64,000 nucleotides of DNA from Pedobacter mucosus. GTDB lineage: Bacteria > Bacteroidota > Bacteroidia > Sphingobacteriales > Sphingobacteriaceae. Below the pieces are notes generated by a model. It saw only the letters and a list, made by a program, of their open reading frames with translations. It was not told the origin of the DNA and made no database searches. Of the stretch, positions 40,547-50,096 are shown piece by piece; the stretch's first letter is position 1, and every line of letters begins with the position of its first letter. The DNA lies in contig NZ_CP087585.1 of the NCBI RefSeq assembly GCF_022200785.1, forward strand, positions 3,720,001 through 3,784,000, written 5' to 3'. The position numbers and the translations under genes are program-made.

Positions 40547-40858
40547 TCATCATAATGGCATAAAATAGTACAATGGTTAATTAAACAATGTGGGCGTTTT
40601 AACACGCTTTCCACTATATCTTTTTGCCAGAAAAAGGCAAAAAGGATGTCGCTTCAATCGTTAACGCAAATGAAAATCTACAATTTTAACCGATTAAACT
40701 GAAACCTAAATAGTAGCATTATACAATCCTTTTAGACCCGATTGAAGCGATATCCATTTCATTTTTCTTGAAATGATTTAGCGTAAAGCGGGAAGAAACT
40801 TTGTTTATTGCAGGAAGATGCTCTTCTTAAAATTTAATTAAAACTTAGCCGCTAATGC
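40547..40858. repeat. intergenic region with an inverted pair of dispersed repeats
   Basis: No gene. Two units of the dispersed repeat lie in opposite orientation: one on the minus strand at ~40590-40660, with CGATTGAAGCGACATCC and the hairpin TGCC/GGCA, and one on the plus strand at 40737-40800, with CCCGATTGAAGCGATATCC, an inverted repeat ATTTCA/TGAAAT and AGCGTAAAGCGGGAAG. The arrangement resembles BIMEs made from paired REP elements. Confidence 0.75.
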
Positions 40859-47922: not shown

Positions 47923-48486
47923 ATGAACGACCTGATACAATTACAATTACTTGATGCTGAATCTGCAATGGATAGGGCTATTGATCATTGTGAATCTGAA
48001 TTAACTAAAATTAGGGCTGGTAAAGCATCAGCAGGAATGTTAGATGGTATTTTCGTAGACTATTACGGAGCTTCCACTGCATTATCTCAAGTTTCGAGCA
48101 TAAATACTCCTGATGCAAGAACAATCGTAATTCAGCCTTGGGAAAAGTCTCTATTAGTACCTATTGAAAAGGCTATTCAAAATGCAAATATTGGTATCAA
48201 TCCTCAAAATGATGGTATCGTTATTCGCTTGGTAGTACCTCCATTAACTGAAGAACGAAGAAAAGATTTAGTAAAAAAAGTTAAGGAAGAAGCTGAAAGA
48301 GGTAGGATTACCATCCGAAATATACGTAAAGATGCCAATACAAAAATTCAAAAGCTAAAAGGTGAAAGTGTTTCAGACGATGAAATAAAAACAGGTGAAG
48401 GAGAAGTTCAGAAACTAACTGATGCCTATATCATTAAGGTTGATAAGCATGCAGAAGTGAAAGAAAAAGATGTTATGACCGTTTAA
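47923..48486 (+). CDS. frr: ribosome recycling factor
   Basis: 187-aa RRF, which splits post-termination ribosomes with EF-G. Motifs: LTKIRAGKASAGMLDGIFVDYYGA, IQPWEKSLLVPIEKAIQNANIGINPQNDG, and RNIRKDANTKIQKLKGE. 37 bp after pyrH. Terminator at 48508-48546. Confidence 0.97.
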   Translation: MNDLIQLQLLDAESAMDRAIDHCESELTKIRAGKASAGMLDGIFVDYYGASTALSQVSSINTPDARTIVIQPWEKSLLVPIEKAIQNANIGINPQNDGIVIRLVVPPLTEERRKDLVKKVKEEAERGRITIRNIRKDANTKIQKLKGESVSDDEIKTGEGEVQKLTDAYIIKVDKHAEVKEKDVMTV

Positions 48487-48621: not shown

Positions 48622-48650
48622 AAAAAGCACATTTTCATGTGCTTTTTAAT
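48622..48650. terminator. second hairpin with A/T flanks
   Basis: Stem AAAAAGCACA (48622-48631) with TGTGCTTTTT (48638-48647). A-run on one side and T-run on the other, so it could work in either direction between frr and the minus-strand RNA genes. The rest of 48487-48828 holds no gene. Confidence 0.6.
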
Positions 48651-48765
48651 TTGTAGTTAAACACCGGGACGATGAGTACTTTCATTTCTAAAACCATTAC
48701 AAATATGTATAATTTTTTAGTTTAAGGTCTCGTTCATTTTATTCAAATAGCCTTTAAATGAAAAA

Positions 48766-48788
48766 GAGCAACCCATCCGGGATTGCTC
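48766..48788 (-). terminator. intrinsic terminator of the tRNA-like RNA unit
   Basis: Minus-strand hairpin GAGCAATCCC/GGGTTGCTC (one bulged base) followed by TTTTTC, located 40 bp after the 3' end of the second tRNA-like RNA. Confidence 0.7.
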
Positions 48789-48828
48789 AATTAACTAACT
48801 TATTATTCATAAAAAATGCTGTTGGGGA

Positions 48829-48962
48829 AGGAGTCGAACCTTCAAAGGGTAGTTAGCTACAGTTCAAAAAATTAATTGTGGTCAACCCAATAAACTGCGT
48901 TTGTCCCATTATTCCCCACCACCGAGACAAGGAGGCGTGTCTGCCAATTTCACCACCCAACA
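48829..48962 (-). ncRNA. tRNA-like RNA with giant variable region (distal copy)
   Basis: 134-nt RNA on the minus strand with a cloverleaf frame. The 7-bp acceptor is TGTTGGG (48962-48956) with CCCAACA (48836-48830). The D arm is Leu-like (GGTGAAATTGGCAGACAC, stem GTG/CAC). A central arm carries CCTCCTTGTCTCGG, and the T arm is GAAGG-TTCGACT-CCTTC. Between the central and T arms lie about 62 nt, containing nested hairpins such as CAGTT/AACTG, instead of the 4-24 nt of normal tRNAs. No CCA is encoded. If the central loop is 7 nt (TTGTCTC), the anticodon position reads GTC with U33 present but a pyrimidine at 37, so decoding is doubtful. I do not recognise a described family. Confidence 0.75.
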
Positions 48963-49043
48963 TTATTAACTAAGTTATAGGTGATACGATCTAAGTGGTA
49001 AGTTAACTTTTAACGTACAATTTAAAACTACTATAACTAAGTG

Positions 49044-49151
49044 CTGTAGGGGAAGGAATCGAACCTTCAAGGAGTAGTTAGCCATTACTGGTTTTCTAGA
49101 TTCTCCGCCACCGAGACAAGGAGGTGTGTCTGCCTGTTTCACCACCCTACA
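49044..49151 (-). ncRNA. tRNA-like RNA with large variable region (proximal copy)
   Basis: 108-nt homolog of the RNA at 48829-48962, encoded first in the unit. The acceptor TGTAGGG (49151-49145) pairs fully with CCCTACA (49051-49045); the fourth pair is A-U here and U-A in the other copy, a compensatory change. The D arm (GGTGAAACAGGCAGACAC), the central CCTCCTTGTCTCGGTGG and the T arm (GAAGG-TTCGATT-CCTTC) match. The variable region is ~36 nt, closed by GGAG/CTCC; the corresponding pairs in the other copy are GGGG/CCCT, again compensatory. Both end the variable region in GCTAACTAC. A promoter lies at 49201-49232. Confidence 0.78.
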
Positions 49152-49200
49152 ATATGTTAGCAATTTTAAAGAACGTTCCTTTTTTGTTAATTGCTTAATA

Positions 49201-49232
49201 CAAATGTAAAATAACATCCAATACCTTACAAA
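49201..49232 (-). promoter_or_regulatory. promoter of the tRNA-like RNA unit
   Basis: Minus strand: TTTG (49232-49229), 20-bp spacer, TACATTTG (49208-49201). Full consensus match, about 50 bp before the 5' end of the first tRNA-like RNA. Confidence 0.78.
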
Positions 49233-49305: not shown

Positions 49306-49782
49306 ATGCTCAAAAAAGACAATTCCAATTTAGAAATTGACAACCTAGATATCGATATATTAAAGCAATTGATGCAGGATGCCACTAAACCGTATACAGA
49401 AATCGCTAAAGACCTTATTGTTTCTGGCGGAACCATTCATGTTAGAATGAAGAAATTGCAGGAAATGGGAATTATAAAGGGCTCGCATTTAATTATTGAT
49501 CCACAAAAGGCAGGCTATGATATTTGCGCTTTTCTTGGTATTTATCTAGAAAAAGGTATTCAATATAAAGATGCTGTTGCGCAGCTTAGTAAAATAAAAG
49601 AAGTTGTTGAGTTGCATTATACAACCGGATCTTACAGCATGTTCGCTAAAATTATTTGCAGAGATACGAATCATTTACGTCATGTTTTGAATGAGGAGAT
49701 TCAAGCCGTTAATGGAATTCAAAGGACCGAAACCTTAATTTCGTTGGAAGAAAGTATTAAAAGGCAAATTGAATTAGGGTAA
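49306..49782 (+). CDS. Lrp/AsnC-family transcriptional regulator
   Basis: 158-aa regulator with an N-terminal AsnC-type HTH (~10-65: LDIDILKQLMQDATKPYTEIAKDLIVSGGTIHVRMKKL) and a C-terminal RAM/ligand-binding domain (~75-150: GYDICAFLGIYLEKG, VELHYTTGSYSMFAKI). Binds amino acids or related ligands and controls metabolism. Divergent from the tRNA-like RNA unit, the two 5' ends being ~150 bp apart. Confidence 0.94.
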   Translation: MLKKDNSNLEIDNLDIDILKQLMQDATKPYTEIAKDLIVSGGTIHVRMKKLQEMGIIKGSHLIIDPQKAGYDICAFLGIYLEKGIQYKDAVAQLSKIKEVVELHYTTGSYSMFAKIICRDTNHLRHVLNEEIQAVNGIQRTETLISLEESIKRQIELG

Positions 49783-50096
49783 AAGTTTTAAGTTGTGGGT
49801 TGTAAGTTTTAAGTGAAATTAAACTAATAGCTTACAGAACACAGCGTTTTAATCCGTATTGATGAAGATTATGTTTATGAAAGGTAAATCCAAATGGGTA
49901 CCGCATAACTTGTTAAAACGACTGTGCTCAAATCATAAATAATTGCACAATCCTAATGCTAATAGCCCAGATTGAAGCGGCATCCCCCGATAGTTCATCG
50001 GGGATAGAGCGAAAAGCGGGAAGAAACTTTAATTCTTATGCTGAACTTGCGCTACTAAAAATTAGTGCTATACTTTATGGCTCTACAAATAAAAAA
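49783..50096. repeat. intergenic region with dispersed repeat unit
   Basis: No gene. 49786-49815 holds an AAGTTTTAAGTTGTGGGTTG-type direct repeat. 49965-50030 is a unit of the dispersed repeat: CCCAGATTGAAGCGGCATCC, hairpin CCCCGAT/ATCGGGG, and AGCGAAAAGCGGGAAGAAAC; it closely matches the unit at 40737-40800 at both ends. Confidence 0.7.

Follow-up and report, generated by a model that had tools for sequence, protein, structure and literature searches.

Two tRNA-like RNAs opposite an AsnC-like gene in Pedobacter mucosus belong to a conserved Bacteroidota family with a probable role in asparagine synthesis

Between frr and a divergently transcribed regulator gene, the genome of Pedobacter mucosus encodes two RNAs that have the form of a tRNA, a GUC anticodon and an oversized variable (V) arm, raising the question as to what function a molecule with an aspartate anticodon on a leucine-like body could serve. 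The window analyzed here is the whole 64,000-nucleotide stretch of the P. mucosus genome in which the locus lies, and the features of the locus are as follows.

47923–48486: frr (PF01765), flanking the RNA pair on one side
48766–48788, minus strand: intrinsic terminator, 3' of RNA2, found by a terminator scan
48819–48962, minus strand: RNA2, a paralogue of RNA1, 144 nt, with a long V arm containing GGGUUGACCAC; U1 at 48962, A72 at 48820, G73 at 48819, encoded C74 at 48818
49044–49151, minus strand: RNA1, tRNA-like, 108 nt from U1 to G73, with a short V arm; U1 at 49151, A72 at 49045, G73 at 49044, encoded C74 at 49043; loop UUGUCUC
49159–49195, minus strand: leader with the inverted repeat AGCAATT/AATTGCT, read directly in the sequence
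49201–49232, minus strand: candidate promoter of the Bacteroidota type, with TTTG at 49232–49229 and TACATTTG at 49208–49201, read from the sequence
49306–49782, plus strand: gene for an AsnC-like regulator, divergent from the RNAs and 154 bp from RNA1

The initial annotation had described two homologous minus-strand tRNA-like RNAs at this position, and both are confirmed. Its length of 108 nt holds for RNA1, but RNA2 is 144 nt rather than 134 nt; the variable regions are oversized as claimed, but 39 nt (RNA1) and 75 nt (RNA2) separate the anticodon stem from the T stem, rather than ~36 and ~62 nt. Two base pair differences between the RNAs to which it drew attention, A-U versus U-A at acceptor pair 4 and A-U versus G-C in the V arm, are real in both sequences. 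The scan recovered the terminator that it had placed at 48766–48788, and in the congeners inspected downstream of RNA2 it is followed, as judged by eye, by similar hairpins and T runs. The proposed consensus promoter fared less evenly, as its elements are present in the sequence but a sigma-70 promoter scan of the window does not list 49201–49232 among its predictions. We take TTTG and TAnnTTTG to be the Bacteroidota promoter consensus. Of 27 homologous intergenic regions between AsnC gene and RNA, 22 contain TAnnTTTG on the RNA strand and 10 on the other strand; in 500 mononucleotide shuffles the mean is 3.6 of 27 regions and the highest 9. The inverted repeat in the leader is possibly an AsnC operator or a leader hairpin.

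The initial annotation had also left room for a known tRNA isotype or Rfam family. ARAGORN calls no tRNA in the whole window, so that no isotype is assigned, and it calls no member RNA in 39 further loci; with Rfam 15 at gathering thresholds no family matches RNA1 or RNA2. The sole tRNA-type match at lax thresholds, tRNA-Sec (RF01852) to RNA1, was rejected, scoring 16 bits against a cut-off of 47. Homologs are readily found. A blastn search with RNA1 places it in 26 of 41 genomes, namely its own, 23 of 24 congeners (the genome of the missed one is 84% complete) and two more distant ones, and the RNA1–RNA2 tandem is found in P. mucosus and in all but one of the 23 congeners with the RNA. In the remaining congener, whose genome is 78% complete, the two are fused into one 169-nt unit, through recombination or an assembly error.

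Covariation supports a tRNA-like fold. With a hand-specified cloverleaf plus V arm, 34 distinct sequences have 95.5% of cells paired and changes on both sides in 8 of 27 pairs, and none of 500 shuffled alignments reaches four of the five measures used, with 74 of 500 reaching the fifth (further pair types). An alignment of 54 members (53 distinct), fitted to a covariance model unlike the hand-specified one, has 98.3% of cells paired and both-sided changes in 18 of 27 pairs, amounting to 180 both-sided cells compared with 42.6 in shuffles, and none of 500 shuffles attains any of the five measures; selection on structure, which had been proposed from the two window RNAs, is thus supported in the family. 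Unguided, RNAalifold recovers four of the stems (acceptor, D, T and V) together with the greater part of the anticodon stem. Single-sequence folding energy is unremarkable and uninformative, with z scores of -0.51 and -0.31 for the window RNAs.

The consensus anatomy consists of an acceptor starting with UG, U8 and G9, a Leu-like D arm, a 5-bp anticodon stem with a 7-nt loop, a 4-bp V stem, a second 3-bp V helix, a variable hairpin, and a 5-bp T stem with a UUCRA T loop. The V arm has two forms, short and long, and the window carries one of each. A GACCAC motif of the GGGUUGACCAC type is present in the V arm of 21 of the 54 members in several families; four members (L079, L083, L084 and L093) have a D loop ~15–26 nt longer, and in one genome (G291) both V arms (L085, 7695–7831 and 8251–8399) carry related inverted-repeat inserts around CCCGATAGCTATCGGG. 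Pairing of the anticodon loop with the V arm, suggested by the minimum free energy fold of RNA2 (UUGUCUCG with UGGGACAA), is weak: complementary 5-mers occur in 27 of 54 members and in 19.0 +/- 3.4 in shuffles, and we regard the pairing as not supported because the V-arm partner, as judged by eye, varies without matching loop changes and because it overlaps the covarying V helix. A small open reading frame in the RNA2 V arm was likewise discarded, as by eye its frame shifts between congeners.

Of 295 genomes sampled from the class, 49 have a match above 69 bits to a covariance model (R1); the other matches listed are ~75–90 nt long and score at most 63.3 bits, and the filters are strict, with some members lost. 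The best hits fetched from 28 RNA-negative genomes are all called tRNA-Leu by ARAGORN (28/28). A second model (R2, at E 1e-14) has matches in 42 of 395 genomes of the phylum, 40 of them members; the other two are a tRNA-Leu by sequence (G640) and a remnant (G082, see below). Three of the 40 member genomes belong to one further class, in family f108, where two loci (L342 and L344) have three tandem copies with A33 and a third genome (G620, L345) has a single match. A plasmid or viral origin was rejected: a plasmid search gave no match, and one pattern searched in viral contigs gave none either.

Among the 54 aligned members, U1-A72, G2-C71, G73, C74, U35 and C36 are present in all, and G34 and C38 in 53 each, giving a GUC anticodon in 53; U33 is present in 43, and position 37 is U in 44, C in five, G in four and A in one (a pyrimidine in 49). 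In 22 further members, found with R2 outside its building set and after removal of a tRNA-Leu (L343), U1-A72, G2-C71, G73, C74, U35, C36, C38 and a pyrimidine at 37 are present in 22/22 and G34 in 20/22, with U33 in 13, A33 in seven and C33 in two; all seven members read from f108 have A33. The window RNAs themselves keep U33 and have U at position 37. The genome itself has 48 tRNA matches, one of them under the cut-off, and ARAGORN resolves 41 distinct sequences, every one with U33 and a purine at 37. Its single tRNA-Asp gene has G1-C72 and the loop CUGUCAC, and its tRNA-Asn has U1-A72.

According to PMC9976931, the determinants for aspartate are G73, G34, U35, C36 and C38, G1-C72 and G2-C71 are strictly conserved in bacterial tRNA-Asp, and amidation of Asp-tRNA is permitted by U1-A72 and prevented by G1-C72 (with U20a). 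The aspartate loop on a type II-like body that the initial annotation had read is therefore supported, as the determinants for aspartate charging are kept across the family and decoding ones dropped, and judged from its sequence the family joins the charging set of tRNA-Asp to the predicted amidation mark of tRNA-Asn (U1-A72). A73 and an initial G or A mark the four tRNA-Leu found in the genome, so the ends of the RNAs are not inherited from a Leu-type tRNA despite their Leu-like body. In their encoded N73-C74 end the RNAs resemble the tRNAs of this genome, and this points to 3' maturation and CCA addition as for any tRNA.

An unusual aspartate isoacceptor or suppressor that decodes on a type II body would account for the cloverleaf and for the GUC anticodon in 53 of 54 members, and the family does share G73 and C38 with tRNA-Asp. 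We consider it very unlikely, given that the genome contains a normal tRNA-Asp with G1-C72, that the RNA is not found in most sampled genomes, and that the family lacks G1-C72 (0/54 and 0/22), a consistent U33 (A33 being universal in the f108 members), a purine at 37 and recognition by ARAGORN.

We favor instead the reading, with a probability of roughly 0.7, that both RNAs are dedicated non-decoding tRNAs for the synthesis of asparagine by AspRS and GatCAB, from which asparagine is released under the control of AsnC. It is based on what is observed, namely the sequence, its structure and how both are conserved, the joint occurrence with GatB, the avoidance of AsnA and of canonical AsnB, and the linkage to AsnC; from these we infer expression, charging, amidation, release, exclusion from translation and regulation. 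The RNAs would be processed like a tRNA, with CCA added, and AspRS would charge them with aspartate because they carry G73, G34, U35, C36 and C38. GatCAB would then convert Asp-RNA to Asn-RNA, because the RNAs start with U1-A72 and not with the G1-C72 that blocks this step in tRNA-Asp. Asparagine would be freed, either spontaneously or by some hydrolase, and feed AsnRS and metabolism, with the RNA cycling. An Asn-tRNA with a GUC anticodon would put asparagine at aspartate codons, which would be why decoding features have been shed: without U33 and a purine at 37, and probably also through its oversized V arm, Asn-RNA(GUC) would stay off the ribosome. The divergent AsnC-like regulator would match the supply of RNA to asparagine, a role parallel to that of AsnC towards E. 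coli asnA. One point counts against this reading, as G1-C72 also helps the charging of tRNA-Asp (PMC9976931), and U1-A72 in the RNA should therefore cost some aspartylation.

A bacterial-type AspRS is present as one match in 78 of 80 genomes, with none found in one RNA-positive (G127) and one RNA-negative genome (G214). The AspRS of P. mucosus has the motif RDLGG, as does that of Thermus (1efw), and the Pseudomonas enzyme (4wj3, named Aspartate--tRNA(Asp/Asn) ligase) has RDHGG; this His/Leu residue is presumably what separates relaxed from discriminating AspRS. Among 30 AspRS loci read, the residue is L in 22, K in four, M in three and F in one, and never H, and it is alike in RNA-positive and RNA-negative genomes, with no contrast between them. 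If the enzyme is discriminating, as predicted, tRNA-Asn would not be a substrate for it, and the existence of a dedicated RNA would be explained.

The 80 genomes were picked by RNA state from the 295, comprising 42 of the 49 with the RNA and 38 of the 246 without it, and the RNA-negative choice favored complete genomes and relatives of RNA-positive ones, so that the frequencies given here are associations and not estimates. Of the RNA-positive genomes, six of less than 90% completeness (G204, G285, G118, G191, G091 and G247) and one with a short contig and a broken loop (G143) were left out. A sensitive search moved one genome (G253) to the RNA-positive set, giving a final 43 with and 37 without the RNA; the former include G212 (with C34), G184 (degenerate) and G308.

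GatB, by which GatCAB was judged, is present in 43/43 RNA-positive and 14/37 RNA-negative genomes. GlnRS was found in 49 of the 80, and these fall without remainder into 26 that have GatB and the RNA together and 23 that have neither (Fisher P 1.7e-14, uncorrected for relatedness). All 14 genomes with GatB and no RNA are without GlnRS, and GatCAB thus has its usual Gln-tRNA task there. AsnRS is present in 79 of the 80 genomes and in 49/49 of those with GlnRS. Canonical AsnB is found in 0/43 RNA-positive and 12/37 RNA-negative genomes, and AsnA in 1/43 (G212) and 8/37 respectively, one of the eight (G031) being just under the cut-off. The query for canonical AsnB was the E. coli-type protein L106 (NCBIfam name asparagine synthase B, 945 bits), which replaced TIGR01536, a model too broad for the purpose as it is over its cut-off in 70 of the 80 genomes. 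Long AsnB-like paralogues (TIGR01536) occur in most RNA-positive genomes and are below the cut-off in only four of the 43 (G025, G184, G266 and G314), so the RNA-positive genomes should not be described as devoid of all asparagine synthetases, and most may hold others in the form of these proteins. The association is also seen within families: in f1, genera g1 and g19 have the RNA and GatB, and g18 and g20 have neither and have AsnB, with similar contrasts in f2, f16 and f36.

We had predicted that 14 genomes with GatB but without a detected RNA, AsnA or canonical AsnB would hide a missed RNA, and this was true of one of the 14 (G253), in which the sensitive search found a 195-nt RNA scoring 114.7 bits. 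GlnRS, searched afterwards, is present in this genome and absent in the other 13. In its first form the prediction thus mostly failed, and the rule that GatB together with GlnRS means the RNA is post hoc. The 13 genomes with GatB and without GlnRS, AsnA, canonical AsnB and RNA are G026, G267, G214, G292, G068, G173, G028, G030, G034, G040, G043, G052 and G065. Nine genomes are without GatB, AsnA, canonical AsnB and RNA; absence of all known asparagine routes therefore does occur, and these nine, like the 13 just listed, weigh against the favored reading. In genus g56, the AsnA-containing G212 has C34 in place of G34, as does G662, and G082, also with AsnA, retains a remnant of 76 nt (L111) that has A34, lacks the V arm and is called tRNA-Asp by ARAGORN. 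These changes fit loss of RNA function once another asparagine route is present. RNAs with C34, A34 or U34 are seen in G212 (L091), G662 (L341), G082 (L111) and G599 (L234); CUC and UUC would be glutamate anticodons, and a switch to Glu/Gln or decay are both possible.

The RNAs could in principle be charged with serine by SerRS by way of their long variable arm and G73, both of which the genome's own Ser tRNAs share. SerRS does not read the anticodon, so this would leave the near-invariant G34, U35, C36 and C38 and the link with GatB unexplained, and we think it extremely improbable.

The regulator gene at 49306–49782, which the initial annotation took for Lrp, is better described as AsnC-like. 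Its product scores 133 bits against E. coli AsnC (2cg4) and 45 bits against Lrp (2gqq), and 180 bits against the NCBIfam AsnC model NF008384, where the next best model scores 72; by sequence it is closest to AsnC, though it falls under the NCBIfam cut-off of 227. Of 40 RNA loci, 27 (from 15 families) have an AsnC homologue transcribed divergently from the RNA, and of the 25 of these 27 neighbors that were aligned, 25 match NF008384 at E 0.001. The other 13 loci are without the AsnC cluster, although one of them (L090) has a diverged copy. No other gene cluster near the RNA loci spans more than three families. E. coli K-12 has asnC and asnA pointing away from each other across 151 bp, and according to PMC4482635 and PMC8707732 AsnC activates asnA there, with asparagine abolishing activation. 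The arrangement in P. mucosus is alike in having an AsnC-type regulator divergent across 154 bp, and differs in that the partner is an RNA gene and not asparagine synthetase A.

Among the best 80 of at least 594 AsnC loci, named by organism, 56 have the RNA alongside and 24 do not. The RNA is beside the AsnC gene in 24/24 Pedobacter, 22/22 Mucilaginibacter, 0/14 Sphingobacterium isolates and 0/3 Parapedobacter in this set, in which some contigs end near the gene; the regulator therefore persists in genera without the RNA. Relocation of AsnC beside asnA or asnB where the RNA is absent was not found in 20 regions of RNA-negative genomes and G212. These gaps in the linkage, together with the score under the NCBIfam cut-off, count against the favored reading.

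The identity elements, the association with GatB and the loss of decoding features would also be explained if the RNA were charged with aspartate and amidated and the Asn-RNA then served, as for tRNA-dependent ligases, as donor for a non-ribosomal transferase modifying lipid, peptide or cell wall rather than as a source of free asparagine, and no hydrolase is known that would release asparagine as the favored reading may require. However, transferase genes do not recur next to the RNA, where the AsnC-like gene is alone in being shared by more than three families, and avoidance of canonical AsnB and AsnA would have no explanation; we consider a donor role unlikely. To a similar degree we doubt that the RNA is a sensor or decoy, binding AspRS and/or GatCAB and reporting or tuning Asp/Asn charging without serving as a biosynthetic intermediate. 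Regulation of synthetases by tRNA mimics is known (PMC9976931), and the divergent AsnC-like gene would suit such a role, which leaves unexplained why GatB occurs only with the RNA in the 49 genomes with GlnRS and AsnRS, and why the encoded G73-C74 end is kept in 54/54 members. The initial annotation had proposed a non-decoding RNA that was either regulatory or a substrate; the second part is supported and the regulatory alternative is the less favored.

Asparagine synthesis on a dedicated RNA is the reading that we extend beyond P. mucosus, and we lean towards the view that a phylum-wide class of non-decoding RNAs acts as the cell's asparagine synthetase gene, its products receiving aspartate from AspRS, undergoing amidation by GatCAB and giving up the asparagine in free form, that it stands opposite asnC in the place of asnA, and that it is the reason why GatCAB is kept despite AsnRS and GlnRS. 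Synthesis of asparagine on tRNA-Asn by a non-discriminating AspRS and GatCAB is described for Bdellovibrio, Deinococcus and Thermus by PMC4206432, which also lists 18 genera, Bacteroidetes among them, with AsnRS, GlnRS and GatCAB and no asparagine synthetase, and supposes tRNA-Asn to be the carrier; the same paper reports that aspS together with gatCAB rescues an E. coli asparagine auxotroph. The system proposed here resembles that route in that aspartate on a U1-A72 RNA is predicted from sequence to be amidated by GatCAB, and in its occurrence in genomes with AsnRS and GlnRS, where canonical AsnB is lacking whenever the RNA is there, although long AsnB-like paralogues are present in most RNA-positive genomes. 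It differs in having as carrier an RNA of its own, to all appearances non-decoding and with GUC rather than the tRNA-Asn anticodon, from which asparagine would have to be released; with an aspartate anticodon on the carrier, no relaxed AspRS would be needed.

Dedicated non-decoding tRNAs are familiar from the staphylococcal peptidoglycan tRNA-Gly isoacceptors, which like the RNAs proposed here are withheld from translation and serve metabolism. The amino acid, the enzymes and the body of the RNA are different, and in the present case the RNA would be the site at which the amino acid itself is made. Bacteroidota tRNA-Leu share the D arm, T arm and type II body with the family, and differ in acceptor end, discriminator, anticodon loop and V arm length. 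We rate the chemistry as known and the dedicated RNA carrier as apparently new; a search of listings and opening lines of abstracts, covering few subscription papers and preprints, did not find the RNA family described. If the reading is right, it answers the question raised in PMC4206432 as to the role of GatCAB in bacteria with AsnRS and GlnRS and no asparagine synthetase. It would mean that a tRNA has evolved out of decoding into an amino-acid-making carrier, with an RNA gene standing in for a missing asparagine synthetase, from a family in a major phylum that is absent from Rfam 15, and it would bear on predictions of asparagine prototrophy for many Bacteroidota.

Other structured elements are present in the window. 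A perfect hairpin at 48622–48647, between frr and the RNAs, scores as terminator-like on both strands, and three Flavo-1 RNAs (RF01705) score above the gathering threshold, at 40730–40799 and 49960–50027 on the plus strand and at 40596–40672 on the minus strand.
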